Shown here piece after piece: positions 8,709 through 37,344 of a stretch of DNA of 64,000 nucleotides (the stretch's first letter is position 1; every line of letters starts with the position of its first letter). The notes under the pieces are model-generated. The model did no database searches and was not told the DNA's origin. It saw nothing but the letters and a program-made list of their open reading frames with translations. Origin of the DNA: Actinoplanes subtropicus. Lineage in GTDB: Bacteria; Actinomycetota; Actinomycetes; Mycobacteriales; Micromonosporaceae. The stretch lies in NCBI RefSeq assembly GCF_000721705.1, contig NZ_JOJL01000012.1:1-64000 (forward strand), given 5' to 3'. Made by a program: the position numbers and the translations under genes.

Positions 8709-8727
8709 AAACGGATCGTATCGTTAG
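8709..8727 (+). promoter_or_regulatory. regulon element ACGnnnCGTATCG, copy 1
   Basis: ACGGATCGTATCGTTAG starts at 8711, about 60 bases upstream of the hydroxylase start on the opposite strand. It is identical over 13 bases to copy 2 and matches the other copies listed in this island. Confidence 0.6.
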
Positions 8728-8921
8728 GATGGGGCTGCGGCAAGGGAGCGACCTGCGGGTTGTCGCTTCCCGTTCTGCTCGACCCCGCGTACGACCTCGC
8801 TGTCATCACCTTGCTCGGCGGCTACGACGGGGAGGTGGGCCGTCGCCCTGGGTGCGAGCGGCGTGGGCTGCAGTGTCGGCGAATCGGCATCCGGGCGACG
8901 GTAAGTGCCCTCCGCCCCGGA

Positions 8922-8940
8922 AAAGCGATACGATCCGTCC
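8922..8940 (-). promoter_or_regulatory. regulon element ACGnnnCGTATCG, copy 2
   Basis: Read on the minus strand the site is ACGGATCGTATCGCTTT. It lies 40 bases upstream of the thiolase start. The 238 bases between copies 1 and 2 contain no gene. Confidence 0.6.
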
Positions 8941-8977
8941 CGTACGTGTTCTCGGGCCTGCCTCAGAAGGAGAGACA

Positions 8978-10198
8978 GTGAGCAAGCAACTCGCCCCCAA
9001 CGACGCGGTCGTGGTGGCCTATCGGCGCACGCCGTTCGGCCGGGCCCGGAAGGGGTCCTTCCGCGCCGAGCGGCCGGAGGACCTGACGCTTGTGGCACTA
9101 CAAGGCGCGCTGGCCGACGTACCGGCGCTCCGGGCCGACATGCTCGACGACTTCTACCTCGGTACCGCCGTTCCCGAGGGCGCCCAGGGGGACAACGCGG
9201 CCCGCCGCGTCGCGGTGTACGGCGGTTACGACGGGCTCCCCGGCGCGAGCGTGAACCGATTCTGCGCCTCCTCGCTCCAGGCGGTGGCTGCGGCCGCTCG
9301 CGCGGTGCGTGCTGGGGATGGAGACGCGTTCGTCGCGGGTGGGATGGAATCGACGTCGAGCACGCCTCCGAACCCGACGAACCGCTACCCGGGTTCCGAG
9401 CAGTCGGCCGCTCGAGCGGACGCACTCTTCGCGGCGTCCGCGCCGTGGACCGACCCGCGCGAGGAGGGGCTGCTCCCGGACGTCTACATCGCTATGGGCA
9501 AGACCGCCGAGTTCGTCGCCGGTCTGACCGGCACCACGCGCCAGGACCAGGACGCGTGGGCCTTGCGGTCCCAGCAGCGCACGGCCGCGGCGATCGGACG
9601 CGGCTTCTTCGACGGGGAGATCGTGCCGGTCACGACCACCGATGGACGGGTGGTCGAGACCGACGACGGCCCGCGCGCCGACACCACGGCAGAAGGGCTT
9701 GCCGCATTGCGGCCTGCCTTCCGCCCAGACGGCACGGTCACAGCCGGCAACGCCAGTCCACTCAACGACGGCGCCTCAGCCATGGTCGTGATGAGCGCAG
9801 CCAAGGCCATGGCTCTCGGTCTCCCGCCGCTTGCGCGGATCCTCGGGGCGGGTGCCAGCGCCCTCTCGCCGGAGATCATGGGTCTCGGCCCGGTCGAGGC
9901 CAGCCGCAGGCTGCTCGGCCGCCTGGGCTTGAGCACGGTGGACTTGGATCTTGTCGAGCTCAACGAGGCGTTTGCCGCCCAGGTCGTCCCCGCGGTCCGT
10001 GAGCTGGGGCTCGATCCGGCGAAGGTGAACGCCAACGGCGGCGCGATCGCCATCGGGCACCCGTTCGGCGCGACCGGGGTCCGGCTTGTCGGGACACTCA
10101 TCCGTGCCCTTCGGGAACGTGACGGAACGCTGGGGCTGGCAACCCTGTGCGTCGGCGGAGGGCAGGGAATGGCATTGGTAGTGGAGCGGATCTCATGA
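8978..10198 (+). CDS. thiolase (acetyl-CoA acyltransferase)
   Basis: This 406-residue thiolase cleaves beta-ketoacyl-CoA or condenses acyl-CoA units. The acylated cysteine is in NRFCASSLQA (Cys96). The other family signatures are NEAFA, GHPFGATG (catalytic His) and the C-terminal CVGGGQG (second Cys). The GTG at 8978 is preceded by GAAGGAGAG. The stop overlaps the ATG of the thioesterase (ATGA), so the two are coupled. In this island it may complete degradation of a side chain or an acyl-CoA ring-fission product. Confidence 0.9.
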   Translation: MSKQLAPNDAVVVAYRRTPFGRARKGSFRAERPEDLTLVALQGALADVPALRADMLDDFYLGTAVPEGAQGDNAARRVAVYGGYDGLPGASVNRFCASSLQAVAAAARAVRAGDGDAFVAGGMESTSSTPPNPTNRYPGSEQSAARADALFAASAPWTDPREEGLLPDVYIAMGKTAEFVAGLTGTTRQDQDAWALRSQQRTAAAIGRGFFDGEIVPVTTTDGRVVETDDGPRADTTAEGLAALRPAFRPDGTVTAGNASPLNDGASAMVVMSAAKAMALGLPPLARILGAGASALSPEIMGLGPVEASRRLLGRLGLSTVDLDLVELNEAFAAQVVPAVRELGLDPAKVNANGGAIAIGHPFGATGVRLVGTLIRALRERDGTLGLATLCVGGGQGMALVVERIS

Positions 10199-10623
10199 GG
10201 CCCGACGACCGGCCCACCGGCCGGCACATCGACCCGGTCATCAAGGAACTGATGCTCGGCGAGTCGTCGCTCGAGTGGTTCGGCTTCGAGATCCTCGAGG
10301 CTACCGGCGGTTCTGCGACGGTGACGCTTGTCGCTCGTGACGGGCAGCTCAACGGGGCGGGTGTCGTGCATGGCGGCATCGTCTTCGCGCTCGCCGACCA
10401 AGCCTTCGCCGCGGCTGCGCTGACCGTGCTCGGCGCCGCCGTGACCGGTGATGCCGCGATCCAGTACCTCGCGCCCTCCGGTGGTGAGTCGGTTCTGACG
10501 GCACAGGCGCGTACGTCGTACTGCGACGGACGCCGTGCTGTGATCGACGTCGACGTCGTCGCCGACGACCGGATCGTGGCGTTGTATCGCGGCACCGCCC
10601 GGGCGGTTCGCAGGCCTCGGTGA
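10195..10623 (+). CDS. PaaI-type hotdog-fold thioesterase
   Basis: This 142-residue hotdog protein has the PaaI signature GAGVVHGGIVFALADQAFA (about residues 60-78), in which HGG and the following Asp form the active site. It should hydrolyse phenylacetyl-CoA-like or other dead-end acyl-CoA thioesters and recycle CoA during aromatic breakdown. Translation is coupled to the thiolase by a 4-base overlap. A terminator hairpin follows. Confidence 0.85.
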   Translation: MRPDDRPTGRHIDPVIKELMLGESSLEWFGFEILEATGGSATVTLVARDGQLNGAGVVHGGIVFALADQAFAAAALTVLGAAVTGDAAIQYLAPSGGESVLTAQARTSYCDGRRAVIDVDVVADDRIVALYRGTARAVRRPR

Positions 10624-10669: not shown

Positions 10670-11689
10670 CTAGGCCTTGATGCGACCCTTGACGAACTCA
10701 CTGTCGGGAAGGTCGGTCACCGGTAGTCCGGACGCGACCAGCGCCGCACGCGCCTGCTTCATCAGCCGGTCAGGGATGCGGGGAGCCGGTGCGCGGAGTG
10801 CTCCGCCGTTGAACCCGGCCAGCCATTCCTGGTACTTCCACCCCGTCCGGTTGATGACCGTGGTGCCGATCGCCGATCCCGTGAGGATGGCCGTGTTGGC
10901 GGCACGCGCCGGCGCGACCTGCCACCACAGCTCCATCGCCTCCTCGAACCTTCCGCTGCGTGCGAGGCTGAAGGCCTTCGGGAAGTAGTCGCTCATCCAG
11001 TTGGTGTTGCTGGTCCCGGAGAACTGGAAGTCCAGCACGGACATGAGCGGGATCGTCTCGCCCTCGATGGGGCAGGAGATGACGACCTCGTCCCGGAAGT
11101 GGTGGTACATCTCCATGACCCCGGGGATGCCCGGATTTCCCTGCTCGGCCTTGACGGCCACGATGTTCGGGATCGTGTCGAGCACGTGGCGCACCCACCG
11201 CACGGGCATCCCGGCGTTGTCGATTCGCTCGAATCCCCAGGCGGGCAGCCCGAAGAGCATGACACCGAGAGGGGTCGAGTCGGCGAGTGCTTTGGTGTAG
11301 TCGTAGACCTCTTCGAGGGTGGTCGGCCAGAACGCGGTCGGGTAGGAGAGCAGCACGCTGTCGGCGCCGGCCTTCTCAGCGAGCCGCAGGGCGGCGATGT
11401 TCTCCTCGAGCGTGTTGAACGCGGCGTGGAAGAAGAGCTGGAAGTCCGGTCCGGCAGCTTCGCGGGCAACGGCGGTGACCCGCGCGTTCTCCTCGGGGGA
11501 GATCGCCACCTCGGCCACGAGCAGGGTCCCGGAGAAGCCGAGCTCCCTGAGCTTGTGGATGTCGTGACGGATCGCGTTCTCGTTGATACCCGCGAAATCC
11601 GGGGTGTAGGACGGTATCGTCACCGCGATGGCACCCTGCCAGTGCTGCCTGGCCCAGGCGCGCGCCTCGTTCTTAGTGTAGTCGACCAT
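10670..11689 (-). CDS. dihydrodipicolinate synthase / N-acetylneuraminate lyase superfamily aldolase
   Basis: This 339-residue (beta/alpha)8 class I aldolase has the Schiff-base lysine in NIVAVKAEQGNPG (about residue 180) and the tyrosine-bearing segment SVLLSYPTAFWPT. Members of this family split or hydrate alpha-keto acids and include hydratase-aldolases of aromatic catabolism, so pyruvate release from a ring-fission product is plausible. The long N-terminal TKNEARAWARQHWQGA segment differs from DapA proper. A GGGAG site precedes the ATG. It is 9 bases downstream of the ornithine-cyclodeaminase-like gene and presumably co-transcribed. Exact substrate unknown. Confidence 0.8.
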   Translation of the reverse strand: MVDYTKNEARAWARQHWQGAIAVTIPSYTPDFAGINENAIRHDIHKLRELGFSGTLLVAEVAISPEENARVTAVAREAAGPDFQLFFHAAFNTLEENIAALRLAEKAGADSVLLSYPTAFWPTTLEEVYDYTKALADSTPLGVMLFGLPAWGFERIDNAGMPVRWVRHVLDTIPNIVAVKAEQGNPGIPGVMEMYHHFRDEVVISCPIEGETIPLMSVLDFQFSGTSNTNWMSDYFPKAFSLARSGRFEEAMELWWQVAPARAANTAILTGSAIGTTVINRTGWKYQEWLAGFNGGALRAPAPRIPDRLMKQARAALVASGLPVTDLPDSEFVKGRIKA

Positions 11690-11698
11690 GCTGACTCC

Positions 11699-12712
11699 CT
11701 ACTTCCGAGTGGTGACGATGCCGGCCGGCAGTTGGATCCCGACCCCGCGTTCGCGGGCGAGGTTCACGAGAGCCTCGGCGACGACGATGTCCTGGAGCCC
11801 GCAGCCCGTGGACTTGTAGATGCGGATCCCTCGGTCGACGTCCACAGTGATGTCGCCCAGAAGAACCGAGTTGAGCGAGACGGTGAGCCGGTCGACGTCG
11901 ATGCCGGCGGCCCGGGCGGCGATCATGTCGCCGCTGCCGTGGACCACCTCGTCGACCCCGTCCGCCACCACGACGCCGGCTCGGGCGATCAGGTCGGCCG
12001 GAAGCTCGCGCTGTGCCGGCGTGGTGGACCCGATCGAGACGACGGTCGCGGTGTCCGCCACCCAGTCCGCCTCGATCGTCGGGGACTCATCGCGGGAGCG
12101 GGCGGCGCACAGCACGAGATCGGCTCCCCGCGCAGCGGCCTCCGCCGAGTCGACCGCCGCCACCGGGACGCCGAGGCCAGAGGTGAAGCGCTCCGCGAAA
12201 GCGAGCCGATTCGCCGGCGTCGGGCTGAAGACCCGCACCGAGGCGAAGGACGCGACCAGGGACAGCGCCGAGGTGTGCGACTGGGCCTCGAAGCCGGAGC
12301 CGATGACGCCGACCTGAAGAGGCCGCCGCGGTGTGATCGCCTCCGTGCCGACGGCCGTGGTGGCCGCGGTGCGCAGGCCCGTCACACGGTTGCCGTCCAC
12401 GAGCGCGACGAGTTCTGCCGTGTCCTTGTCGAACAGCGAGATGAGGTAGCTGACGCGCAGCCCGTCGGCAAAGGAACCGTTGATGGACTTCGCGCCGAAC
12501 AGCTGTCCGGTCGGGGGCGCCGAGGGCATCACGCGCATCCACTCCCTCCCGCCGTTTGCGAAGATCCTTCCCGGGTTGCGCTTGTCGTCCACGCCGGTGC
12601 GGTAGGCGGCGCGGATCACCGCGATGGCGCTCGGCAGGTCCGACAGCGTCTCCACGTCGCTGTCGGTGAGGAACAGGGGGAGCCGGGTCGGCGGCTCGGC
12701 TTCAGCGCTCAT
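11699..12712 (-). CDS. ornithine cyclodeaminase / mu-crystallin family NAD(P)-dependent enzyme
   Basis: This 337-residue protein has the family layout: a substrate half (NPGRIFANGGREWMRVMPSA, GAKSINGSFA), then a Rossmann motif VGVIGSGFEAQSHTSAL (near residue 125) and the C-terminal dimerisation segment. Relatives are ornithine cyclodeaminases, ketimine reductases and N-alkyl amino acid dehydrogenases; ornithine metabolism makes no sense here. The conserved Lys-containing GAKSING fits ketimine or imine chemistry. The start is the ATG with GGAGGAGAG upstream. It is divergent from the dehydrogenase gene, with a regulon element between them. Confidence 0.8.
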   Translation of the reverse strand: MSAEAEPPTRLPLFLTDSDVETLSDLPSAIAVIRAAYRTGVDDKRNPGRIFANGGREWMRVMPSAPPTGQLFGAKSINGSFADGLRVSYLISLFDKDTAELVALVDGNRVTGLRTAATTAVGTEAITPRRPLQVGVIGSGFEAQSHTSALSLVASFASVRVFSPTPANRLAFAERFTSGLGVPVAAVDSAEAAARGADLVLCAARSRDESPTIEADWVADTATVVSIGSTTPAQRELPADLIARAGVVVADGVDEVVHGSGDMIAARAAGIDVDRLTVSLNSVLLGDITVDVDRGIRIYKSTGCGLQDIVVAEALVNLARERGVGIQLPAGIVTTRK

Positions 12713-12758
12713 CGGTCTCTCCTCCGCGGCCTCACGGCCACCGACCTCATCGTAGACG

Positions 12759-12777
12759 AGACGTACCGTACCGCATG
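12759..12777 (+). promoter_or_regulatory. regulon element ACGnnnCGTATCG, copy 3
   Basis: ACGTACCGTACCGCATG starts at 12761 and is the least conserved copy. It is centred between two divergent starts (12712 minus, 12822 plus), about 50 bases from each. Confidence 0.5.
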
Positions 12778-12821: not shown

Positions 12822-14198
12822 GTGGCGATCGCAACCGTGAACCCGTCGACCGGGAAGACCGAGATGGTCATCGAGGCACACACGCCGGCACAGGTGCAGG
12901 AACGGATCGGCGAGGCGGCTGCCGCGGCCAAGGCGCTGTGCCGGACCACGTACGCCCAGCGGGCCGGTTGGATGCGCGCCGCCGCCGATCTGCTCGACGA
13001 CGAGTCCGCCAACCTCGGCCGGCTCATCACGGTCGAGATGGGCAAGCCCCTCGCCCAGGCGATCGCCGAGGTGGCGAAGTCCGCCAGGGCGATGCGTTTC
13101 TACGCGGACAACGCCGAGAGCTTCCTGGCTGACGTGCCGCTCGAGGACCCGGCCGAGGTGGGCGCCTCCAGGGCCTGGACCCGCTACGAGCCGCTGGGCG
13201 TCGTGCTGGCCGTCATGCCGTGGAACTACCCGCTGTGGCAGGTCATCCGGTTCGCGGCCCCGGCGCTCATGGCCGGCAACGCCGGCCTCCTGAAGCATGC
13301 CTCGAACGTCCCGCAGGCGGCGATCTTCCTCGACACGCTCTTTGAGCGGGCAGGTTTCCCGAAGGGCTCCTTCCGCACCCTGCTCATCGGCGGCGCTGAG
13401 GTGGGTGCTGTGATCGCGGACCCGCGGGTCAAGGCCGTGACGCTCACCGGTTCGGAGCCCGCGGGTCGCTCCGTCGCCGCGATCGCGGGGGACCACATCA
13501 AAAAGACCGTGCTGGAACTCGGAGGCAGCGACCCGTTCATCGTCCTGCCGTCGGCGGACATCCAGCAGGCCGCCGCCACCGCCGTGCGTGCGCGAATCAA
13601 CAACAACGGACAGTCCTGTATCGCCGGCAAGCGGTTCATCGTCCACGCCGAGGTCTACGACGCCTTCGCGGCGGAGTTCGCCAGGCGGATGTCCGAGCTG
13701 AGGGTCGGCGATCCCCTGCTGCCGGGCACGGAGGTCGGGCCGCTCGCAACCGAGTCGGGACGCCGGGAGCTCATCGAGCTCGTCGAGGACGCCCAGGCCA
13801 AGGGCGCCACCATCCTCGCCGGCGGCACCGTGCCCGACGGGGACGGCTGGTTCTACCCGCCGACCGTCATCGCAGACCTGCCCTGCGACGCCCGGCTCGT
13901 CCAGGAAGAGGCCTTCGGGCCGGTCGCCTGCCTCTATCGCGCGCACGACAACGAGCACGCGTTGCGCCTCGCGAACCAGACGACCTTCGGCCTCTCGAGC
14001 GCCGTCTGGACGAACGACCCGCAGGAGCAGGACTACTTCATCGCCCACCTCGAGGCAGGCGCCGTCTTCGTGAACGGAATGACCGTCTCGTACCAGGAAC
14101 TCCCGTTCGGCGGGATCAAGCGCTCCGGTTTCGGTCGTGAGCTGGCCGCCGTGGGGCAGCGCGAGTTCTGCAACCTGAAGACCGTCTGGGCGGTGTAG
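12822..14198 (+). CDS. succinate-semialdehyde dehydrogenase-type aldehyde dehydrogenase
   Basis: This 458-residue aldehyde dehydrogenase oxidises a semialdehyde to an acid with NAD(P)+. Catalytic Glu232 is in LELGGSD and Cys266 in NNGQSCIAGKRF. The MPWNYPLWQV motif and C-terminal ELPFGGIKRSGFGRE match the GabD2-like short group. The GTG start is preceded by AAGGAGAG. Homoprotocatechuate breakdown by HpaI releases succinic semialdehyde, and no other candidate for its oxidation is present in the window. Assignment to that role is inference supported by the shared promoter element. Confidence 0.85.
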   Translation: MAIATVNPSTGKTEMVIEAHTPAQVQERIGEAAAAAKALCRTTYAQRAGWMRAAADLLDDESANLGRLITVEMGKPLAQAIAEVAKSARAMRFYADNAESFLADVPLEDPAEVGASRAWTRYEPLGVVLAVMPWNYPLWQVIRFAAPALMAGNAGLLKHASNVPQAAIFLDTLFERAGFPKGSFRTLLIGGAEVGAVIADPRVKAVTLTGSEPAGRSVAAIAGDHIKKTVLELGGSDPFIVLPSADIQQAAATAVRARINNNGQSCIAGKRFIVHAEVYDAFAAEFARRMSELRVGDPLLPGTEVGPLATESGRRELIELVEDAQAKGATILAGGTVPDGDGWFYPPTVIADLPCDARLVQEEAFGPVACLYRAHDNEHALRLANQTTFGLSSAVWTNDPQEQDYFIAHLEAGAVFVNGMTVSYQELPFGGIKRSGFGRELAAVGQREFCNLKTVWAV

Positions 14199-14344
14199 GC
14201 CCGGCCTGGCCAGCACGGCGATGGGCTCCGGCCGCCGTACTGAACAGGATGTCTCCTTGGCGCCCGGTGGACAGACTTCCGGACCGAAGTTGCCCCGGAG
14301 CGGAGGGTCGCCAAGAGGTGTGGCGCGCGTTACGATTCGGCAAC

Positions 14345-14361
14345 CGATACGATACGTATAG
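14345..14361 (-). promoter_or_regulatory. regulon element ACGnnnCGTATCG, copy 4
   Basis: Minus-strand reading ACGTATCGTATCGGTTG; the plus strand contains the perfect dyad ACGATACGT at 14349-14357. It lies only 20 bases before the start codon of the next gene, a position suited to repression or to a very short leader. Confidence 0.65.
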
Positions 14362-14378
14362 AACATGAAGGAGTGCCG

Positions 14379-15884
14379 ATGGCCTACGACGCGGACGTCA
14401 TCGTCATTGGGGCCGGACCCGTCGGGACCGTGGCTCTGGCCCTGCTCGGTCGCCTCGGTGTCGCTGCCATCGGCCTCGAGAAGGATGTCGAGATGTGGAC
14501 CACCGCCCGCGCGGTCCATTTCGATGGAGAGACCTTCCGTACGCTCCAGGCGCTCGGTATCGCCGACGAGGTCCGGGCGGTCACGATCCCGATGAAGGAC
14601 GTGGACATCGTCAACACCGACGGGGAGGTCCTCGTCCACGCGGAGACCCACGAGATCGGTGGCCAGGGCTGGAACGAGCACATCAGCTTCCACCAGCCCG
14701 ATGTCGAGGCTCTCGTCCGCCGGGTTGTCGAGTCGGCCCCCGGAATCAGCCTGCGGAGGGGCGTGACGGTCACCGAGGTCCGCAACGTTGAAGGCGGTGT
14801 CGAAGTCGCCACCGAGGACGACGGCGGTGCGCGGAGCGTCCTGACGGCGCGGTGGGCGATCGCCGCCGACGGCGCACGGGGCCAGTTCCGCCGAGCCTTG
14901 GGCATCGAGACCGATAAGTACGGCGAGGACGAGCAGTGGCTCGTCGTCGACGGCCATCTCGTCGGAGCACCCGGTTACCAGACCGACATGATCCAATTCG
15001 CGAGCTATTTGCGACCTGCGCTGTGGCTGCGCCTGCCAGGCACCCGCGTCCGCATGGAGTTCATGCTCGTCCCGGGTGACGACCCTGACCACGTCGCCAC
15101 TCCGGAAGCCGTCGAGCTGATGAGCGCCGGGATCCTCCCGCGGGACAAGTTCACGCCCGACCGCCAGGCGATCTACACGTTCCGCGGCCGGATCGCGCAG
15201 CGTTGGCGGGACGGAAACATTTTCATCGCCGGTGACGCGGCTCATCAGGCGCCGCCGCTGTTCGGCCAGGGCCTGTGCGCCGGCCTCCGTGACGTCGCGA
15301 ACCTTGTCTGGAAGCTGGATCTGGTGAGGCGCGGGCTGGCTGGCGACGAGCTCCTCGACACGTACGAAAGCGAGCGTAAGCCCCATGCGACCTACTGGGT
15401 CGAGGTGGCCGCCAACCAGGCAGTCGCCATCCAGACCCTCGATCCCCACCTCGCCCAGGGGCGGGACGAGTTCATGAAGGCCCACCCGGAGGCGTCAGCG
15501 GTGCCGATCCCGCCGTCGCTGGGCCCCGGCCTGCACGACGGAGATCGGGACGGCCGTGCCGGAAGGCTAAGCATTCAGCCGATCCGGTCCGACGGCACGC
15601 GTCTCGACGATGAGGTCGGGCCCCGCTTCGTCGTCGCCGCCGAAAGATCCCTCTACGAGCAACTGCCGGACGAGGTGAAGGCGGTGCTCGACGAGGACAG
15701 CGACACCGTCACGCTGCTCGAACCGGTCGACGCCGGTGTGCTGCTGGCCTCGGTTGACGCCCAAGCCGTCGTGATCAGGCCCGACCACTACATCCTCGGC
15801 TGCGCCGACACCGTTGCCGACCTGGAGGGACTGGTCCGCCGGATCCCGTCCATCGCGCACCTGAGCGCACCCCTGCACCGCTGA
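14379..15884 (+). CDS. MhpA-type FAD-dependent hydroxylase
   Basis: This 501-residue class A flavin monooxygenase resembles 3-(3-hydroxyphenyl)propionate and resorcinol hydroxylases. The FAD motif is DVIVIGAGPVGTVALALLG (residues 6-24), the middle motif is WAIAADGARGQFRRALG, and the ribityl motif is GNIFIAGDAAHQAPPLFGQG (about 275-294). The C-terminal thioredoxin-like domain ends the protein. AAGGAG precedes the ATG by five bases. It is the first gene of a tight operon with a ring-cleavage dioxygenase, an FAH hydrolase and a binding-protein-like gene, so it probably makes the catechol-type substrate for that dioxygenase. Confidence 0.85.
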   Translation: MAYDADVIVIGAGPVGTVALALLGRLGVAAIGLEKDVEMWTTARAVHFDGETFRTLQALGIADEVRAVTIPMKDVDIVNTDGEVLVHAETHEIGGQGWNEHISFHQPDVEALVRRVVESAPGISLRRGVTVTEVRNVEGGVEVATEDDGGARSVLTARWAIAADGARGQFRRALGIETDKYGEDEQWLVVDGHLVGAPGYQTDMIQFASYLRPALWLRLPGTRVRMEFMLVPGDDPDHVATPEAVELMSAGILPRDKFTPDRQAIYTFRGRIAQRWRDGNIFIAGDAAHQAPPLFGQGLCAGLRDVANLVWKLDLVRRGLAGDELLDTYESERKPHATYWVEVAANQAVAIQTLDPHLAQGRDEFMKAHPEASAVPIPPSLGPGLHDGDRDGRAGRLSIQPIRSDGTRLDDEVGPRFVVAAERSLYEQLPDEVKAVLDEDSDTVTLLEPVDAGVLLASVDAQAVVIRPDHYILGCADTVADLEGLVRRIPSIAHLSAPLHR

Positions 15885-15904
15885 GCCCGGAGAAGGAGAA
15901 CCCG

Positions 15905-16846
15905 GTGGCCTTCAGCCCCATTACACATATCCGTCACTTCGACATCGCTGTGCCCGACTTCGATCAGCAGATCGAGTTCTACAAAAACCATTGGGGGCTG
16001 ACGGTCCAGCACGACGACGGCGACGTCGTCTACTTCGCCGCCGAGGGCTCGCCGGAGCAGTACATCACCCGCGTGCGCAGGTCGGCCGACAAGCGCCTCG
16101 ACCTGGTCGCCTTCGGGGCCGCCAACCGGGAGGCCGTCGACACCCTCGGGCGGGATCTCGCCGCCGCGGGGGTTCAGCTGGTCTTCGAACCGAAGGATCT
16201 GTCGACGCTCGGCGGCGGCTACGGCTTCCGCTTCTTCGACCTCGAGGGGCGCACGATCGAGGTCTCGACGGAGGTCGAAGCACGTCAGCACCGCAAGATC
16301 GAGCCGCGGGAGGCGATCCCGGTACGGCTCTCCCACGTGGTACTGAATTCCAGGCAGCCCGAGAGCATGCGCGCCTGGTACCAGAAGCACCTGGGGTTCC
16401 GCCTCTCGGACACCCTCCACCACCCGCAGGCTGGCGACCTCTTCTACTTCTTGCGATGCAGCCCGCAGCATCACTCGATCGCCATTGCCCGGGGGCCGCA
16501 CGCGTCGCTCCAGCACGCCTCCTTCGAGCTGCGGAGCATCGACGACTACATGTTCGGCAGCGGCCGGATCATTCGCGCCGGCTACCGGAAGATCTGGGGC
16601 CCGGGTCGTCACCGCGCCGGGGACAACACGTTCACGTACTTCATCGACCCCAACGGCAACACGATGGAGATGACCACCGACCTGGAAATCCTCGACGAGG
16701 ACGCGTGGCACCCGCACATCTACGACGTGCGGGAGCCCGCGACCAGTGATCTCTGGGGTACGGGCGGCGACATGAACGAGTTCATCACCAAGGAGATGTT
16801 CAACGATTCGGACAACGCCCACCTCTTCGTCGCGCCGCCGGTCTGA
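15905..16846 (+). CDS. extradiol ring-cleavage dioxygenase (vicinal oxygen chelate, type I)
   Basis: This 313-residue two-domain VOC protein starts at a GTG with AAGGAGAA upstream. The metal site is in the C-terminal half: His in VRLSHVVLN (about 143), His in LQHASFEL (about 203) and Glu in NGNTMEMTTD (about 258). The last 50 residues, including HPHIYDVREPATSDLWG, are longer than in classic catechol 2,3-dioxygenases. It should cleave a substituted catechol next to the hydroxyl pair. Its substrate differs from that of HpaD at 25125-26204, because the two share only the fold. Confidence 0.85.
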   Translation: MAFSPITHIRHFDIAVPDFDQQIEFYKNHWGLTVQHDDGDVVYFAAEGSPEQYITRVRRSADKRLDLVAFGAANREAVDTLGRDLAAAGVQLVFEPKDLSTLGGGYGFRFFDLEGRTIEVSTEVEARQHRKIEPREAIPVRLSHVVLNSRQPESMRAWYQKHLGFRLSDTLHHPQAGDLFYFLRCSPQHHSIAIARGPHASLQHASFELRSIDDYMFGSGRIIRAGYRKIWGPGRHRAGDNTFTYFIDPNGNTMEMTTDLEILDEDAWHPHIYDVREPATSDLWGTGGDMNEFITKEMFNDSDNAHLFVAPPV

Positions 16847-16849
16847 GAC

Positions 16850-23929: not shown

Positions 23930-23933
23930 CGAC

Positions 23934-27755: not shown

Positions 27756-27795
27756 GGCAGTCTCCTGGTGACGTCGATTCGGGGGTGGCCGGTGG

Positions 27796-29921: not shown

Positions 29922-30706
29922 GGCATCTCCTTGATGTAGTCAGCAGCGAGTTTCTCGCTGCCTCGGGCGAGCAACTGGACGTCGGCGCCGACGAGGATGA
30001 AGTCGGCGCCGGCGGCCAGGTAGCGCCGCGCGAGTGTGGGGGCGAAGGCGTTGACGCCGACGGGGGTGTGCGCGCGGCGGCCGGCCGCGATGCACCGCAG
30101 CACGCTGTCGACGACGTCGGGGTGGTCCTGCTGGCCGAGCATGCCCATCGAGGCGGCCAGGTCGGAGGGGCCGACGAAGATGCCGTCGATGCCGGGCGTC
30201 CGGGCGATGGCGTCGACGTTCGCGACCGCCGTGGCGCTCTCGATCTGGACGTAGACCGACAGCGTGTCGCGCGCCGTCGCGAGGTAGCCGTCCACCCGGT
30301 TCCATCGGGAGGCCCGGGCCAGGGCGCTTCCGACGCCGCGGATTCCCTCGGGTGGGTAGGACGTCGCCCGGGCCACCTCCGCCGCCTGCTCGGGCGTATC
30401 GACCATCGGTACGAGGAGGTTCTGGACGCCCAGGTCGAGGTACTGCTTGATGGTCACGGCGTCCGCGACCGGAGGCCGGACGATGGGCGTCGCCGGGAGC
30501 CCGTGCACCGCCTGGAGCTGGGCCAGGATGGACTCCAGGCCGTTGGGGCTGTGCTCGGCGTCGACGAGCACCCAGTCCACGCCGCTACCGGCACAGATCT
30601 CCGCGACGAGCGGGCTGCCGCTGCAGACCCAGATGCCGACGAGAGGGCGGTCGGTCGCGGCGAGCGCCTGCCGGAAGGTCGGGTCGAGGCTCAAGCGAAG
30701 CGGCAC
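29918..30706 (-). CDS. hpaI: 4-hydroxy-2-oxoheptanedioate aldolase
   Basis: This 262-residue class II aldolase of the HpcH/HpaI family splits 4-hydroxy-2-oxoheptanedioate into pyruvate and succinic semialdehyde. The catalytic base is in LVDAEHSPNG (His52), with the arginine in PIVRPP, the metal Glu in VYVQIESATAVANVD and Asp in FVGPSDLAASMG. Its start overlaps the end of the hydratase gene by 16 bases and its stop overlaps the fusion gene. Length and motif order agree with HpaI. Confidence 0.92.
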   Translation of the reverse strand: MPLRLSLDPTFRQALAATDRPLVGIWVCSGSPLVAEICAGSGVDWVLVDAEHSPNGLESILAQLQAVHGLPATPIVRPPVADAVTIKQYLDLGVQNLLVPMVDTPEQAAEVARATSYPPEGIRGVGSALARASRWNRVDGYLATARDTLSVYVQIESATAVANVDAIARTPGIDGIFVGPSDLAASMGMLGQQDHPDVVDSVLRCIAAGRRAHTPVGVNAFAPTLARRYLAAGADFILVGADVQLLARGSEKLAADYIKEMP

Positions 30707-31476
30707 GTGATCGCCCCCAGCGTTCCGTAGTCAGCGTGGACGGTGTCGCCGCGCTCGACCCACATCGGACGGGTGAAGGAGCCGGCCAGAATGATGTCGC
30801 CGGCCCGGAGGCTGGTCTGATGGTGCTGGAGTTTGTTCGCCAGCCAGGCCACGCCGCTCGCGGGGTGATTGAGCACTCCCGCGGCGACGCCGGTCTCCTC
30901 GATGGTCTGGTTGCGATAGAGCAGGGCGCCCACCCAGCGCAGGTCGACCGCGTCGACGGCGACGGGGCGACCGCCCAGGACCATCGCGCCCATGGCGGCG
31001 TTGTCACTGATCGTGTCGACTATCGTTCTGCCGCTCAGCTCGATGTGCGAGTTGAGGATCTCCAGCGCAGGGACGACGTATCTGGTCGCCGACAGAACGT
31101 CGAAGACCGTGCAGTGCGGGACGTCGAGCGGTTGGTCGAGGACGAATGCGAGCTCAACCTCGACCCGTACGTTGGAGTAGTTGGCGAAGGGCACGACGGC
31201 GCCGTTCTCGAACACCATGTCGTCGAAGATCACGCCGTAGTCGGGCTCGGTGATGCCGGTCGCGGCCTGCATCACCCTCGACGTCAGACCGATCTTGCGG
31301 CCCACGACCCGATGCCCGGCGTCGGCTCGACGCCGGGCCCAGAGCGCCTGGACGGCGTAGGCGTCCTCGACCGTCATGCCGGGGTAGCGAGCGGTCAGCA
31401 GCGGAACGACCGAGCGCGTTCGGTCCGCCTCGAGCAACTCGTCGGCGATGCTCTCGATCTGGGAGGGTCCGAGCAT
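30691..31476 (-). CDS. hpaH: 2-oxohept-4-ene-1,7-dioate hydratase
   Basis: This 261-residue protein of the MhpD/HpaH hydratase family (FAH superfamily) has the metal-binding E-x-E in NVRVEVELAFVL (about residue 107) and the N-terminal AYAVQALWARRRADAGHRVVG typical of the group. It adds water to the enol acid before HpaI cleaves it. It lies three bases after the NRAMP gene and overlaps hpaI, consistent with one transcript. Confidence 0.9.
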   Translation of the reverse strand: MLGPSQIESIADELLEADRTRSVVPLLTARYPGMTVEDAYAVQALWARRRADAGHRVVGRKIGLTSRVMQAATGITEPDYGVIFDDMVFENGAVVPFANYSNVRVEVELAFVLDQPLDVPHCTVFDVLSATRYVVPALEILNSHIELSGRTIVDTISDNAAMGAMVLGGRPVAVDAVDLRWVGALLYRNQTIEETGVAAGVLNHPASGVAWLANKLQHHQTSLRAGDIILAGSFTRPMWVERGDTVHADYGTLGAITCRFA

Positions 31477-31479
31477 GGG

Positions 31480-32757
31480 TTATCCCTTCAGCGTCAGGAC
31501 GAGCAGGAGGAGGTTGAGAGTGACGATCCCTAGGGCGACGACCGTTCCGGCGATGCGAAGGGCGGCTCGGTTGGCGAAGGAGCCCATCACCTCGCGGTCT
31601 GCCGTCAGGCGGATGAGGGGTATCAATGCCAGCGGAATGCCGATGGACAGGACGACCTGGCTCAGCACCAAGGCCCGAGAGGGGTCGACGCCGGTGGCGA
31701 GCACAACCAGGGCGGGGATGATCGTCACGACCCGTCGGGTGATGACAGGCACGCTGACCTTCAGCAGGCCCGCCATGATCTCGGACCCGGCATAGCCGCC
31801 GAGCGTCGTCGACGCCAGACCGGACGCCAACAGGCCCACCGCGAACACCAGGCCGACGCCCGCGCCGATATGGGCGGTCATCGCGCTCGCGGCCCCTTGG
31901 AGGGTATCCGTATCCCCGATGCCTCGCAGGGCCGCGGCGGCCAGCAGAAGCATGGCGAGGTTGACGCTCCCGGCCACAGCGAGAGCGGACCCGACGTCCC
32001 AGCGAGTCGCCCTGAGCAGCTTGTCGGCCAGCCCCGAGGGTACGGGGACGCCGGGTGCGCAGTGGCGGTCACGCGCGAGGCTGGAGTGCGCGTAGATCGC
32101 GTGCGGCATCACGGTGGCACCGACGACCGCGGCAGCGAGGAGCACCGAATCGGTCCCCGAGAAGCGCGGTGCCACACCACCCAGCGCGCCGAGCCAGTCG
32201 ACGTGGCTGACCGCCAGGCCCGAGGTGAAACCGATCACGATGACGGCCAGCATGCCGATGAGCACAGCTTCGAACGTCCGCTGCCGGCGGCGCGATTGAA
32301 GCGCCAGCATCCCGAAGGAGACGGCACCGACGATCAGCCCTCCCAGGACAAGAGGGAGGCCGAACAGGATCCGCAGAGCCAGGGCGCCGCCGATCACCTC
32401 GGCCACCTCGGTCGCGACGATGGTCACTTCGGCCTGGGCCCAGTACAGCAGCCGCCAGCGGCCGGACAGGCGCGCCCGCATCTGCTCGGGGAGGCTGCGG
32501 CCAGTGACGATCCCGAGCTTGGCGGACAGGTACTGCGCAACCACGGCGGCGATATTCGCCAGCAGCAGCACCCATACGAGCAAGAAGCCGTACCGGGCAC
32601 CGGCGGTCAGGTTCGTCGCGACATTCCCAGGGTCCACGTACGCGATCGACGCGACGAACGCGGGCCCCATCAGCCGGACCAAGTGTCCACCGTTGAACGA
32701 CCGGCCGCGTTTCTCTGTCGGCCAAGCAGTCGCCTGGACCTCTTCCTGAACCGTCAT
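31480..32757 (-). CDS. NRAMP-family Mn2+/Fe2+ importer
   Basis: This 425-residue protein has about eleven membrane segments. The first metal-binding helix carries DPGN (residues 42-45) and the sixth carries ATVMPHAIYAHS (Met217, His219), where Met selects soft divalent transition metals. A GGAGGG-rich leader precedes the ATG. It is the first gene of the hpa operon, with only three bases before hpaH, an unusual place for a metal importer. The operon ends in a mononuclear Fe or Mn dioxygenase and contains FAH-type enzymes that need Mg or Mn, so supplying the cofactor is the likely reason. Confidence 0.88.
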   Translation of the reverse strand: MTVQEEVQATAWPTEKRGRSFNGGHLVRLMGPAFVASIAYVDPGNVATNLTAGARYGFLLVWVLLLANIAAVVAQYLSAKLGIVTGRSLPEQMRARLSGRWRLLYWAQAEVTIVATEVAEVIGGALALRILFGLPLVLGGLIVGAVSFGMLALQSRRRQRTFEAVLIGMLAVIVIGFTSGLAVSHVDWLGALGGVAPRFSGTDSVLLAAAVVGATVMPHAIYAHSSLARDRHCAPGVPVPSGLADKLLRATRWDVGSALAVAGSVNLAMLLLAAAALRGIGDTDTLQGAASAMTAHIGAGVGLVFAVGLLASGLASTTLGGYAGSEIMAGLLKVSVPVITRRVVTIIPALVVLATGVDPSRALVLSQVVLSIGIPLALIPLIRLTADREVMGSFANRAALRIAGTVVALGIVTLNLLLLVLTLKG

Positions 32758-32811
32758 GGTGGCCCTCCCTCCTGGTCCGGTTCTCGTATATGAAATCGTA
32801 GATGCGGTTCA

Positions 32812-32830
32812 GAACGTAGCGTATCGAATG
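32812..32830 (+). promoter_or_regulatory. regulon element ACGnnnCGTATCG, copy 6
   Basis: ACGTAGCGTATCGAATG starts at 32814, about 55 bases upstream of the NRAMP start. It is one of two copies in this 151-base divergent promoter region. Confidence 0.6.
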
Positions 32831-32851: not shown

Positions 32852-32868
32852 GAACCGATACGGGCCGT
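32852..32868 (-). promoter_or_regulatory. regulon element ACGnnnCGTATCG, copy 7
   Basis: Minus-strand reading ACGGCCCGTATCGGTTC; it sits about 40 bases before the FAH start at 32909. With copy 6 it gives one element per divergent operon. Confidence 0.6.
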
Positions 32869-32908
32869 ACCGTATAGTGTGGCCAGGTCAACCGAAAGGG
32901 AGTCACCC

Positions 32909-33916
32909 ATGAAGTTGGGACGGATCGAGGTCCAAGGCCCGGACGGCGCCGAGCCCCGGGTCGTGGCGGCGGAGCCGGAGAACGCAAGGGTCATCGACCT
33001 GAAGAAGGCGTACGCCCTCGCGCTTCAGAAGGGCGGCGCCACGGTCGAGGGGTCACGGCACCTCGCCCACGCGACCTTCCGTGACCTCACTCAGGGCATC
33101 TCGACCGGCGACTTCTTCCTCCAGGCGGCGCACGAGGCGCTCAAGGCAGCTGACGACGCCTCCTTGCCGATCGCAGAGGTCACCTGGAAGGCCGCGATCA
33201 AGCCGCCGGTGATCCGGGACAGCCTGACTTTCAACGGGCACATCAAGAATTTCTTCGGCAACGTCATGAAGTCCGTCCCGACGCGGGCCGTCTACGAGCG
33301 GCCGGGGTTCTTCAAGGGCTCGACGGCGACGATCTACGGAACGAACGAGACGATCCCGTACCCCGACATCACCGAACAGCTCGACTACGAGCTCGAGATC
33401 GGCTTCATCATCGGCAAGCCGGGCCGGAACGTCACGCCGGAGGACGCGTTCCGGCACGTCTTCGGTATCACGATCTTCAACGACTGGTCCCTGCGCGACG
33501 TGCAGGTGCTGGAGAGCCCGATCGGCATGGGGGCGCAGCACTCGAAGGACTTCGCCTACGGGATCGGCCCCTGGATCGTCACCCTCGACGAGATCCCGTC
33601 GGTCATCGGTCTCACCGGCCAGGTGCGCGTCAACGGCGCGGTCTGGTCCGATACCAAGGTCGAGGATTTCATCTGGAAGCCGGAGGAAACCGTCTCGTAC
33701 GTCTCGCAGTTCGACGGCCTCCAGCCCGGCGACCTCATCGGCTCCGGCACCATGGCGTTCGGCGCGGGCGTCGAGCTGAGAAAGTTCCTGCAGCCCGGCG
33801 ATGTGCTCGAGCTCGAGCTGGAGCGCGTCGGGATCCTTCGCAACCCCATCTCGGCCAGCAAGGAGTCCGCGTCCTGGTGGCCGACCCCGCAGCCGTTCCC
33901 CTTCGAGGAGGCCTGA
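32909..33916 (+). CDS. fumarylacetoacetate hydrolase family protein
   Basis: This 335-residue FAH-superfamily enzyme has the metal motif LDYELEIGFIIGK (about residues 160-172) and FNDWSLRDVQ. The C terminus carries GDLIGSGTMAFGAG, as in fumarylpyruvate and acylpyruvate hydrolases. AAGGGAG precedes the ATG. It is the first gene of an operon with a cupin protein and an acyl-CoA synthetase, divergent from the hpa operon. It is the third FAH-type protein of the island and probably hydrolyses a different diketo acid, perhaps giving acetoacetate, because a ligase for that acid follows. That last point is inference. Confidence 0.85.
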   Translation: MKLGRIEVQGPDGAEPRVVAAEPENARVIDLKKAYALALQKGGATVEGSRHLAHATFRDLTQGISTGDFFLQAAHEALKAADDASLPIAEVTWKAAIKPPVIRDSLTFNGHIKNFFGNVMKSVPTRAVYERPGFFKGSTATIYGTNETIPYPDITEQLDYELEIGFIIGKPGRNVTPEDAFRHVFGITIFNDWSLRDVQVLESPIGMGAQHSKDFAYGIGPWIVTLDEIPSVIGLTGQVRVNGAVWSDTKVEDFIWKPEETVSYVSQFDGLQPGDLIGSGTMAFGAGVELRKFLQPGDVLELELERVGILRNPISASKESASWWPTPQPFPFEEA

Positions 33917-33918
33917 GC

Positions 33919-34539
33919 ATGTCGTCGATCATGCCCCGCCCGCCGGTCCGGCGCGTTGTCACGGGCCACGATGACCGAGGCCGAGCGGTCATCCTCTCCG
34001 ACGGGCCGGCGCCCAACACGTTCCGCTCCGCCGCCATCGCCGGATTCGGTGCATCCGTCGCCTGGTTTACGGCCTCTCCGCAGATCGACATGGTCACGCA
34101 CGATGACAGCGCACCCGCCGAATCCATCGAGAACATCGGTTTCCCGACGCCCGGCCAGACGGTCTTCCGTGTCGCCGACTTCCCGCCGGACGCCAGCTAC
34201 CCGAAGAACGCGGGGGACACGATCTTCGATGAGATCGACGGCCACGAGGAGCGGGTGACGAGCGACGACGGCGCCGACCAGAAGCATTTCTGGTTCCACC
34301 GAACCGACTCGCTCGACTACGCGATCGTCCTCGACGGCGAGATCACTCTGATCGTCGACGAGGGTGAGGTGACGTTGAAGGCCGGCGACGTGGCGGTTCA
34401 GCGCGCCACAGCCCACGCCTGGTCGAACCGCACGGACAGGATCGCCCGGGTCGCCTTCGTCCTGATCGGTACCGAGCCGATCAGTCCGGCCGAGATCGCC
34501 GCCCAGCGCACGGGGGCGCAGGCCTCCTCGCCGGCGTGA
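33919..34539 (+). CDS. cupin-domain protein
   Basis: This 206-residue protein starts just after the FAH stop. The C-terminal half is a cupin (HFWFHRTDSLDYAIVLDGEI, then ITLIVDEGEVTLKAGDVAVQ and ATAHAWSNR). The N-terminal 90 residues (VVTGHDDRGRAVILSDGPAP) are conserved in a group of cupins found in aromatic gene clusters. Only some metal-binding His/Glu positions of motif 1 are kept, so catalysis is uncertain. Isomerase, dioxygenase or ligand-binding roles are all possible. It overlaps the next gene by GTGA. Confidence 0.75.
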   Translation: MSSIMPRPPVRRVVTGHDDRGRAVILSDGPAPNTFRSAAIAGFGASVAWFTASPQIDMVTHDDSAPAESIENIGFPTPGQTVFRVADFPPDASYPKNAGDTIFDEIDGHEERVTSDDGADQKHFWFHRTDSLDYAIVLDGEITLIVDEGEVTLKAGDVAVQRATAHAWSNRTDRIARVAFVLIGTEPISPAEIAAQRTGAQASSPA

Positions 34540-36521
34540 TCGTCGACGACTTCGCGGCCGACGGCGACATCATCTGGCGGCCGTCGGCGGAGACGATCGA
34601 GAGCGCCCAGACGGAGCGGTTCGCCGCCTTCGTACGAGAGCGCGGCCAGCACCTCCGGCCTGGCTACGAGGGACTCTGGCGCTGGACCGTCGACGAGCCG
34701 GACGCGTTCTGGGCCGCGTTCGCAGAGTGGGCGGGCATCCGCCTCGGCGGGGCGCCGGGGCCGGTGACCAACGGCGCCGGGATGCCCGGAACCCGTTGGT
34801 TCCCCGGGCGGACGGTCAACTTCGCACGCCACCTGCTTGCGGGACGCGCGGGCGCCGCGATCGTCGCGGTCTCCGAGGACGGGGCAACCGAGGAGTGGTC
34901 GTTCGACCGCCTGCGCGGCGAGGTCGGGGCCCTGGCCGCGCACCTGCGCTCTCTCGGAGTGACGCCCGGGGATCGCGTCGTCGCGGTGCTCCCCAACATC
35001 CCGGAGGCCATGGTCGGGCTGCTCGCCGCCGCCTCCATCGGAGCGGTGTGGTCGGTGTGCGCGCCGGAGTTCGGGCCCGGTGCGATCGTCTCGCGGTTCC
35101 AGCAACTGCGTCCGAAGATCGTCATCGCCGCTCCGGGCTACCGGCTCGGCGGCAAGGAACGTGACCGCCGGCCCGAGATCGCTGACGTGCTTGCACAACT
35201 GCCCGGCGTGGTTGAGGTCATCTGGGTCAGCCACCGCGCCGCGACGCCTTGTCCCGACCAGGCGGGCGTTGCGGCCGTGGACTGGTCCGAGGCCGTGGGC
35301 TCCTGGCGGGAGCCGGACTTCGTCGACGTGGAGTTCAGCCACCCGCTGTGGGTGCTGTTCTCCTCGGGCACCACCGGTATCCCGAAGGGAATCGTCCACG
35401 GCCACGGCGGAGCGCTGTTCGAGGAGCTACAGATGCTCTATTTCGGCGGCGACCTGCGCCCCGGCGACCGTTACCTCAGCGTCGCCTCGACGAGTTGGGT
35501 CGTCTGGAACTCGCTCGTCTCGTCGATCGGCGTCGGCGCCACGCCGGTGTTGCTCGACGGCAACCCCACCTACCCGTCGCTGGACCGGGTGTGGGAGGTG
35601 ACGGCCGCCACCCGGGCTGCCGTGCTCGGCGTCGGCGCCGGCTTCCTCCACGCCTGCGGCAAGTCGGAACTCGTCCCCCAGGCGGACCATGACCTCTCGT
35701 CGCTGCGGGAGATCCAGGTCACCGGCTCCCCGCTGTCCGTCGACGGCTTCAGGTGGGTTTACCGGAACGTTGGGGACGTCTGGCTGGTCTCGATGAGCGG
35801 CGGGACGGACATCGCCGGCTGCTTCGTCGGCGGAGCACCCACCGAGCCTGTGCGGGTCGGCTACATCCAGGCGCCGGCGCTCGGCGTCAAGGTCGAGTCA
35901 TGGGACGACAAAGGGAGGCCCACGCCCGGGACGGGCGAACTCGTCGTCACCGCGCCGATGCCTTCCATGCCGCTCTACTTCTGGAACGACGAGGACGGGG
36001 CCAGGTACGCGGCGAGCTACTTCGAGACGTATCCAGGCGTATGGCGGCATGGTGACTTCATCACGATCTCGGACAAGGGCATCCAGATCCTGGGGCGGTC
36101 CGACTCCACGTTGAATCGCAACGGCATACGCCTGGGATCCGCGGACATCTACGCCGTCGTCGAGTCGCTCCCCGAGGTGGCCGAGGCGATGGTCGTCGGT
36201 GCCGAGATGGGGCCGGAGGCCTATTACATGCCGCTGTTCATCCAGCTCAGCCCGGGTACCGACCACGAGAGCGCGCGGGCGGCGGTGGAGAAGGCGATCC
36301 GGTCAAACCTCTCGGTCCGGTACCTTCCCGACGACCTGGTCGTCATGCCGGCGGTGCCGCACACGAAGACCGGCAAGAAGCTCGAAGTGCCTGTCAAGCG
36401 ACTCCTGCAAGGCGCGGCCCTCGCCGATGTGGTGGACCTCGACGCCGTCGACGACCCCGCGCTCCTGCAGAAGTACGCCGCTTTCGCCGCCGCTGCGGCA
36501 AGGGCTCGCGCAAGGGGCTGA
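34536..36521 (+). CDS. aacS: acetoacetyl-CoA synthetase
   Basis: This 661-residue ANL-superfamily ligase activates acetoacetate or a close beta-keto acid to the CoA thioester. The N-terminal cap contains YEGLWRWTVDEPDAFWAAFA. The AMP-binding motif is VLFSSGTTGIPKGIVHGHGG, the middle region has STSWVVWNSLVSSIG, and the C-terminal hinge and catalytic Lys are in PHTKTGKKLEVPVKRLLQG. Length fits AacS (about 650). The GTG overlaps the cupin stop. With the thiolase at 8978-10198 it would route acetoacetate to acetyl-CoA. Confidence 0.9.
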   Translation: MIVDDFAADGDIIWRPSAETIESAQTERFAAFVRERGQHLRPGYEGLWRWTVDEPDAFWAAFAEWAGIRLGGAPGPVTNGAGMPGTRWFPGRTVNFARHLLAGRAGAAIVAVSEDGATEEWSFDRLRGEVGALAAHLRSLGVTPGDRVVAVLPNIPEAMVGLLAAASIGAVWSVCAPEFGPGAIVSRFQQLRPKIVIAAPGYRLGGKERDRRPEIADVLAQLPGVVEVIWVSHRAATPCPDQAGVAAVDWSEAVGSWREPDFVDVEFSHPLWVLFSSGTTGIPKGIVHGHGGALFEELQMLYFGGDLRPGDRYLSVASTSWVVWNSLVSSIGVGATPVLLDGNPTYPSLDRVWEVTAATRAAVLGVGAGFLHACGKSELVPQADHDLSSLREIQVTGSPLSVDGFRWVYRNVGDVWLVSMSGGTDIAGCFVGGAPTEPVRVGYIQAPALGVKVESWDDKGRPTPGTGELVVTAPMPSMPLYFWNDEDGARYAASYFETYPGVWRHGDFITISDKGIQILGRSDSTLNRNGIRLGSADIYAVVESLPEVAEAMVVGAEMGPEAYYMPLFIQLSPGTDHESARAAVEKAIRSNLSVRYLPDDLVVMPAVPHTKTGKKLEVPVKRLLQGAALADVVDLDAVDDPALLQKYAAFAAAAARARARG

Positions 36522-36624
36522 CGCGTTTCGTTCGGGAACGTTTCGCCCGGGTTCCCCATGTACGCGGGTCGGAAACTCCGGAGATCCAGGAGCCCTGGCT
36601 TCGTGTCGGACCGGAAGAATCCCT

Positions 36625-37215
36625 ATGCTTCTGGCTGTGGCAGTCAGGAGCGAACAAAGTCGCCAGGCAATCCTGGACGCAACGATGAAGCTGCTCGACG
36701 AGCGCGAACCCGGGTCGATGTCCCTCCAGCAGTTATCGATCGAACGGATCGCCCGGGAAGCCGGCGTCAGCAAGACCACGATCTACCGGTGGTGGCCGAA
36801 TAAGGCTGCCGTGGTAATCGACACGTTCCTCGAGAACCACATCCTTGCCACGCCGCTGCGTGAGGACCTACCCGCGGTTGACGCCCTCCGCGAGCACATC
36901 CTGGCCCTCGCAGCCCTCTACGGCGGCCACGAGGGTCGTTTGATGGCCCAGCTCATCGCCGAGGCGCAGTACGACCCGCCGACGCTCGAGGAGTTCAAGA
37001 AGCACTTCTGGCGCCCGCGTCGCGAACTGGTGAATCGTCTGATCGAGCGGGCAATGTCCGAGGGTTCCATCCGGAGCGACCGTCACCCGGACCAGATTGC
37101 CGAGCGCGTGTACGCGCCGATCTATTTCAAGCTGCTCTTCCAGGAGGGCTCGTTCGACGCTGAATCCATGGCGGCCGGCTTCGATCTTGCCCTTGAAGGC
37201 ATCGCGAAGCAGTGA
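36625..37215 (+). CDS. TetR-family regulator
   Basis: This 196-residue regulator has an N-terminal HTH (LSIERIAREAGVSKTTIYRWWPNKAAVVID) and a C-terminal ligand domain of the TetR_C_16/AcrR type (GHEGRLMAQLIAEAQYDPPTL, FWRPRRELVNRLIERAM). The ATG has a GGAAGA leader; a GTG 12 bases downstream is an alternative start. It follows aacS by 100 bases and precedes ridA. It is the second candidate for the factor binding the island's shared element, because it is the only other regulator inside the region where the elements occur. Confidence 0.85.
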   Translation: MLLAVAVRSEQSRQAILDATMKLLDEREPGSMSLQQLSIERIAREAGVSKTTIYRWWPNKAAVVIDTFLENHILATPLREDLPAVDALREHILALAALYGGHEGRLMAQLIAEAQYDPPTLEEFKKHFWRPRRELVNRLIERAMSEGSIRSDRHPDQIAERVYAPIYFKLLFQEGSFDAESMAAGFDLALEGIAKQ

Positions 37216-37322
37216 CACTCCGGACGCGTTGAGCTCGTGCTTCGTCTTCTGCGCAGATTCTCGTGCCCTGGCTCGACCAGCGCCGGCCCAGTTACGGCAG
37301 CGAGCCGAAGCAGGCATTCGAC

Positions 37323-37344
37323 ACTAGACGTTTCGTATCGGTTC
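37323..37344 (+). promoter_or_regulatory. regulon element ACGnnnCGTATCG, copy 8
   Basis: ACGTTTCGTATCGGTTC starts at 37328 inside ACTAGACGTTTCGTA, the 15 bases shared with copy 5. It is about 80 bases upstream of ridA and is the last copy toward the right edge of the island. Confidence 0.6.

Follow-up and report, generated by a model that had tools for sequence, protein, structure and literature searches.

Described systems and the locus studied

PhlF, the repressor of the Pseudomonas phlACBD genes, binds an inverted repeat from which diacetylphloroglucinol (DAPG) or monoacetylphloroglucinol (MAPG) releases it, according to the passages on it in PMC8003664, and those in PMC11659477 give a 30-bp site containing a 24-bp inverted repeat. 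Here we describe eight copies of a palindromic sequence in an aromatic-degradation island of Actinoplanes subtropicus (contig NZ_JOJL01000012.1, positions 1 to 64,000; this whole 64-kb stretch of DNA is referred to as the window), which are very probably the operators of a PhlF-type (TetR_C_11) repressor encoded by the island itself at 36625-37215. The best reading of the locus is a local repressor regulon of six promoter regions, probably spread by horizontal transfer, in which a ring-cleavage/acetoacetate pathway and a homoprotocatechuate (hpa) operon would be controlled together. Both PhlF and the window TetR combine a TetR_N domain with PF16859, but the window TetR lies among degradation genes and PhlF among genes for antibiotic synthesis, and a single operator (phO) has been described for PhlF compared with eight sites here.

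Among other described systems, SAV576 of Streptomyces avermitilis is an autoregulated TetR protein with a TAC...GTA palindrome (PMC3742746). Its consensus in the passages compared, CCRTACRVYGTATGS, is spaced TAC-n3-GTA whereas the island sites are spaced TAC-n5-GTA, and in this comparison, made by site only, an SAV576-type site was rejected on spacing. On the catabolic side, the induced ipp cluster for 2-isopropylphenol in Rhodococcus sp. D-6 encodes a ring-cleaving dioxygenase, a fumarylacetoacetate-hydrolase-domain protein and an acetoacetyl-CoA-synthetase homologue; the parallel is chemical only, matched by protein families, and the passages in question named no regulator (PMC12442392). A described 4-hydroxypyridine cluster has a different make-up. 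Of the homoprotocatechuate genes in the island, hpaD, hpaE and hpaH pass the NCBIfam cut-offs and hpaI does not. Classical hpa regulators belong to other families, and the control proposed for the island block would act via a PhlF-type operator beside the Nramp gene.

Eight sites with a common palindrome

In the window, all eight sites listed in an initial annotation of this DNA were found with the coordinates and letters given there. The annotation aligned them on one common core, which fits six of the eight exactly (ACGnnnCGTATCG), while the copies at 12761 and 20048 depart from it by one and two mismatches, respectively. Across the 11.26 Mb genome the exact core occurs 19 times, six of them within the 29-kb island, and its reversed pattern seven times. 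Twelve of the 13 exact cores outside the island score below 12 on the weight matrix described below; the remaining one (C13:57580, in L010; score 19.0), the only one with a fair score, apparently lies in an open reading frame (ORF). A 20-letter pattern allowing up to 3 mismatches is found at 12 places in the genome, eight of them in the island (representing seven sites, because two places overlap and 32814 is missed), and its reversed control at eight places genome-wide. The annotation had named matches of the same quality at random places in coding DNA as an outcome that would speak against it; as far as these pattern searches reach, none were seen in the genome.

A weight matrix was built from 30 sites in 15 loci of relatives, with the window DNA excluded from training; L057 and L052 were left out, no site came from L062 or L050, and 31-mers that recurred were removed. 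When applied to the window, this matrix scores at least 20 at eight places (overlaps collapsed), which are identical to the eight already known, and at no further place in the window does it score 12 or more. Ten column-permuted matrices gave no score of at least 20 on the window, and 20 windows simulated with a Markov model gave a mean of 0.5 hits of at least 12, the best being 20.3 (overlapping hits uncollapsed). Because the matrix shows conserved flanks around the core (A-T-A at -6 to -4 and A-T at 15-16), the site is a 23-bp imperfect palindrome, about ATnCnAnACGnnnCGTATCGnAT. The GSWTG-like tail noted earlier is the outer portion of the right half-site, and the matching left portion had gone undescribed. 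In an untargeted count of spaced dyads in the relatives' loci, ATAC-n10-GTAT came out on top and ATAC-n5-GTAT in fourth place; since L065 was entered twice and both strands were counted, the numbers are inflated and serve for ranking alone. Both spacings are present within one site, which may reflect two overlapping dimers.

None of the bases in the eight cores is coding, in an island of which 1542 of 31133 bases (5.0%) are intergenic according to our own gene models, built from ORFs, Pfam/NCBIfam hits and ribosome-binding sites. The intergenic placement proposed at the outset is thereby borne out, and the proposed distance of 20-85 bases from the start comes close to our measurement of about 21-79 from core edge to preferred start codon. 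Ten gaps in the island exceed 40 bp; six hold sites, every one upstream of a gene start, and the other four comprise two convergent gaps, one within a same-strand block and one preceding tetR. Divergent promoters carry either two copies (8711/8938 and 32814/32868) or one shared copy (12761), as had been described. A promoter-like TAGACG-17-TAGCAT, recognized by eye from position 37325, overlaps the site of operator 8 (Table 1), and a simple search for TAnnnT revealed no consistent -10 spacing across all eight sites.

The sites accompany tetR in other species

The close relatives comprise 16 loci from public genomes, with TetR identities of 48-83% (L055-L070), plus three stretches of one further genome; among these 19 stretches L057 repeats L056, L069 and L070 overlap, and L052 holds no tetR. 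In their 349 kb there are 32 exact cores and none in reversed form, or 115 against 16 when up to one mismatch is allowed, and the exact core is present in 16 of the 19 stretches. The sites precede orthologues of the genes for the binding protein, the second fumarylacetoacetate hydrolase (FAH2), the thiolase, the ornithine cyclodeaminase (OCD)/aldehyde dehydrogenase pair and the MhpA-like hydroxylase, and in many relatives a site also lies about 40 bp upstream of tetR itself. Together with the matrix, which finds exactly the eight sites in the window, this gives good support to the single regulon across the island that the initial annotation had suggested.

The association extends to more distant homologues. 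Among 80 homologue loci, the best of 218, the lower part consists of 64 distant loci, mostly from Proteobacteria, in which the 51 kb within 400 bp of tetR contain 21 exact cores and the other 994 kb seven; 16 of the 64 have an exact core within this distance. These counts take in perfect palindromes once for each strand, and they include seven closely related Herbaspirillum loci (L092, L116, L126, L128 and L130-L132), in which the exact core stands just downstream of tetR. Nine plasmid loci outside the training set, drawn from 23 records with a TetR match (six loci, H21-H26) and 58 with a PhlF match (three loci, H44, H48 and H53), contain 15 sites scoring at least 20, distributed over six of the nine loci, where 20 permuted matrices give zero or one. 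The plasmids of Corynebacterium occultum and Rhodococcus koreensis carry several such sites at pathway genes and at tetR. Two Bradyrhizobium plasmids (L149 and L153) combine operators and a related TetR with genes for FAH and cupin proteins and a gene for 3-keto-5-aminohexanoate cleavage.

The proposed regulator and its relation to PhlF

The regulator encoded at 36625-37215 matches TetR_N (PF00440) with 39.4 bits (cut-off 24) and TetR_C_11 (PF16859) with 69.9 bits (cut-off 32), and in its own genome it is the sole match reported at E<=1e-20, with 10 of 85 candidates scored. The closest solved structure by sequence is 2fq4 (E 1.9e-26, residues 8-178), which is named only as a TetR-family regulator. 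The window TetR shares 34% identity with PhlF over 174 aligned columns; the PhlF sequence used is 95% identical to a database record of that name (P0122). In a midpoint-rooted tree of 40 rows, PhlF and proteins from P. brassicacearum, Chromobacterium and Pantoea form a group with 100/100 support, and the window TetR stands outside it, so that it is a protein distinct from PhlF that probably acts in a similar way. Linkage to phlACBD was not found either, the neighbours between 6695 and 37827 being catabolic according to Pfam and NCBIfam.

The initial annotation knew of no named regulator with this site. That statement can be amended: the window TetR belongs to the Pfam group of PhlF, and the Pantoea regulator that groups with PhlF, on a long branch and among other neighbour genes, has a site scoring 33.2 at 55 bp before its start. 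A plasmid regulator of Pseudomonas sp. XWY-1 (L154), 40% identical to PhlF, has no site of at least 17. The operator form looked for as PhlF-type was ATnCnAnACGnnnCGTATCG. A putative 30-bp phO sequence, whose letters were found in no paper searched, reaches 31.7 on the matrix built from relatives, a value that a good site would have. Letter searches of the literature for phO found no relevant paper, a plasmid search with this putative sequence found no match, and a literature search for PhlF-like, PhlF-homolog, PhlF-family or PhlF-type regulators found no paper.

Alternative readings and proposed mechanism

Several observations count against the assignment of the sites to this TetR. An exact core is lacking in three of the 19 close stretches and, within 400 bp of tetR, in 48 of the 64 distant loci, and three of the nine plasmid loci have no site of at least 17. 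The window tetR, unlike that of many relatives, has no operator directly in front of it, the best score in the gap 36522-36624 being -0.5. The motif TIYRWW of the DNA-binding helix region is present in all 40 aligned rows, PhlF among them, which speaks for the assignment, but rows that have no nearby site share this region too, so it is no proof of specificity. Allowing the 13-letter core up to 2 mismatches gives 92 matches in the window where 101.5 are expected, which is no enrichment, so the case cannot be built on loose matches, and the significance of the core lies in exact matches, flanks and position. The training sites were moreover selected by exact core, so that the fully independent features of the matrix are flanks and positions, and co-occurrence by itself would be compatible with another regulator that travels with the island.

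That the TetR binds the sites yet mainly activates, or acts as a dual regulator, is improbable: the distance from site to start codon varies (21-79 bp) and activators are known in the TetR family, but some sites overlap possible promoter elements, such as the one at operator 8, as would fit occlusion, and PhlF is described as a repressor in the passages of PMC8003664.

Of the two candidates proposed at the outset, the GntR/FCD protein (27796-28470) and the TetR, the latter is backed by the association of motif and gene in relatives and the former lacks such an association. The GntR protein would be a candidate for running the regulon, since its gene is part of the hpa operon within the island, and there are matches to it in L055 and L066 (53-54%) and weakly in L065 (27%), as well as an annotated FCD-domain gene in L149. 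However, a match at E<=1e-3 is found in only three of the 23 relatives' stretches, many of the other 20 carry sites, the sites adjoin tetR in several phyla, and the hpa block of L055, which has its own GntR, lacks a core even with one mismatch allowed. We therefore rejected GntR as binder on co-occurrence and consider its role very unlikely; the relatives' stretches are 8.5-41 kb long, which leaves room for a GntR gene farther away. Because the sites track tetR in relatives, mostly without a GntR match, the TetR is the likely binder of the eight sites. Finally, low-G+C words are conspicuous against the 69% G+C of the window and loose matches are at chance level, but to read the motif as part of a promoter, or as a repeat due to chance or composition, is hardly credible in view of the concentration of good matches in the island across 11.26 Mb, the conservation of the motif with tetR across species and phyla and the failure of permuted and Markov controls to reproduce the sites.

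With the TetR as repressor, we infer from sequence the following course of binding, repression and release by a ligand, acting on operons whose structure is likewise predicted. A TetR dimer, or two overlapping dimers, would bind the palindrome of about 23 bp at six promoter regions and thereby silence the genes for hydroxylases, ring cleavage, hydrolases, activation of acetoacetate and uptake together with the hpa operon. An aromatic ligand, either a substrate or an intermediate, would release the TetR and turn the genes on. Since tetR follows the FAH2-cupin-acetoacetate-CoA ligase block on the same strand, at a distance of 103 bp, it is probably self-regulated via the operators in 32758-32909.

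Genes of the island

Candidate operators and genes are listed in Table 1. The enzymes of the putative regulon include two FAD hydroxylases plus FAH-family hydrolases, and the gene set would fit an aromatic ring cleavage that ends partly in acetoacetate. Sequence searches of the PDB with the extradiol dioxygenase, the hydroxylase, the FAH protein and the product of gene 17833-18573 indicated no substrate; a polyphenol as substrate or inducer is a guess that draws on the analogy with PhlF.

Table 1 Candidate operators, genes and gene blocks of the island. Matrix scores refer to the matrix built from relatives; L numbers denote loci of relatives
Feature	Position	Strand	Context	Basis
Operator 1	8704..8726	+	divergent region 8651-8977, ~60 bp upstream of phenol-2-monooxygenase-like gene (6695-8650, -)	exact core; matrix 33.0
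Operator 2	8923..8945	-	divergent region 8651-8977, 39 bp upstream of thiolase start 8978 (+)	exact core; matrix 21.9; thiolase orthologue also preceded by site in L063, L064
Operator 3	12754..12776	+	one copy for ornithine-cyclodeaminase-family gene (-, start 12712) and aldehyde dehydrogenase (+, start 12822)	core with 1 mismatch; matrix 21.8; site in same gap in Arthrobacter L063/L064
Operator 4	14342..14364	-	21 bp upstream of MhpA-like hydroxylase (start 14379, +)	exact core; matrix 32.5; site precedes same gene in L063, L064, L065
Operator 5	20041..20063	+	59 bp upstream of ABC substrate-binding-protein gene (20120, +)	core with 2 mismatches; matrix 26.8; site precedes same gene in L056, L058, L060, L061, L063, L064, L065
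Operator 6	32807..32829	+	divergent region 32758-32909, 56 bp upstream of Nramp (32757, -), which heads the Nramp-hpaHIG-gntR-hpaED block	exact core; matrix 26.8
Operator 7	32853..32875	-	divergent region 32758-32909, 41 bp upstream of FAH-family gene (start 32910, +)	exact core; matrix 25.7; orthologue preceded by site in L056, L058, L060, L061, L065, L067, L068, L069
Operator 8	37321..37343	+	between tetR and RidA-family gene (+)	exact core; top matrix score 33.3
Phenol 2-monooxygenase-like FAD hydroxylase	6695..8650	-		NCBIfam
Acyl-CoA thiolase and hotdog thioesterase	8978..10623	+		NCBIfam, Pfam
DapA-family protein and ornithine cyclodeaminase/mu-crystallin-family protein	10670..12712	-		Pfam, NCBIfam
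Succinate-semialdehyde-dehydrogenase-like aldehyde dehydrogenase	12822..14198	+		NCBIfam; start from ribosome-binding site
MhpA-like hydroxylase, extradiol dioxygenase, FAH hydrolase, gene 17833-18573, old yellow enzyme (OYE)-family oxidoreductase	14379..19965	+		NCBIfam, Pfam
Sugar-type ABC importer (binding protein, ATPase, two permeases)	20120..24971	+		NCBIfam, Pfam
Nramp-hpaH-hpaI-hpaG-like-gntR-hpaE-hpaD block	25125..32757	-		NCBIfam
GntR/FCD regulator	27796..28470	-	inside hpa operon	Pfam
FAH-family hydrolase, cupin, acetoacetate-CoA ligase	32910..36521	+		NCBIfam, Pfam
TetR-family regulator (TetR_N + TetR_C_11)	36625..37215	+		Pfam; motif-linked in relatives
RidA-family gene	37405..37827 (start 37405, or GTG 37420)	+		Pfam

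The RidA-family gene has no match in the 23 relatives' stretches at E<=1e-3, so its membership in the regulon depends on operator 8, and it may be a local addition. Gene 17833-18573, for which Pfam, NCBIfam and the PDB gave no match within the limits applied, is conserved, with homologues in several relatives' islands. Some of these islands also contain FAD_binding_4 oxidoreductases (L055:2272-3993, L059:4493-6124 and L063:4031-5773), and a tblastn search of the window with the L055 protein found nothing at E<=1e-3. A second TetR-family gene (38182-39030), with an MftR-like C-terminal domain, adjoins a GH1 beta-glucosidase gene and has no site of at least 12 nearby.

Origin and significance

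The window TetR groups with proteins of Microbacteriaceae, with support of 96/89 (five rows) and 100/99 (eight rows). In 298 sampled genomes of the host's order, one other genome has a TetR match of more than 50% identity, and in 394 sampled genomes of the host's class, one other genome has a match beyond E 1e-35. The 11.26 Mb host genome is larger than we would presume for Microbacteriaceae. This grouping and the rarity of matches in the host's own order and class suggest that the island was acquired by horizontal transfer.

A broader and rather doubtful proposal is that an ancient pair of PhlF-type regulator and operator, occurring in several phyla, came in Actinobacteria and Bradyrhizobium to control a horizontally mobile regulon degrading acyl- or alkyl-polyphenols of the phloroglucinol, resorcinol, hydroquinone or flavonoid type to acetoacetate. 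If true, the type of sensor that guards the synthesis of a phloroglucinol antibiotic in Pseudomonas would here respond to related polyphenols, of plants or microbes, as a source of food.

The mechanism is ordinary and its setting new: systems of this kind are well known, and the link between operator and regulator is unusually clean and testable. An aromatic-degradation island of several actinobacterial families thereby gains a probable regulator with a precise operator, and its inducer becomes directly searchable with a reporter. The sites also suggest that PhlF-type operators are in use well beyond Pseudomonas, which has a bearing on cross-talk where PhlF serves as a part in synthetic biology.

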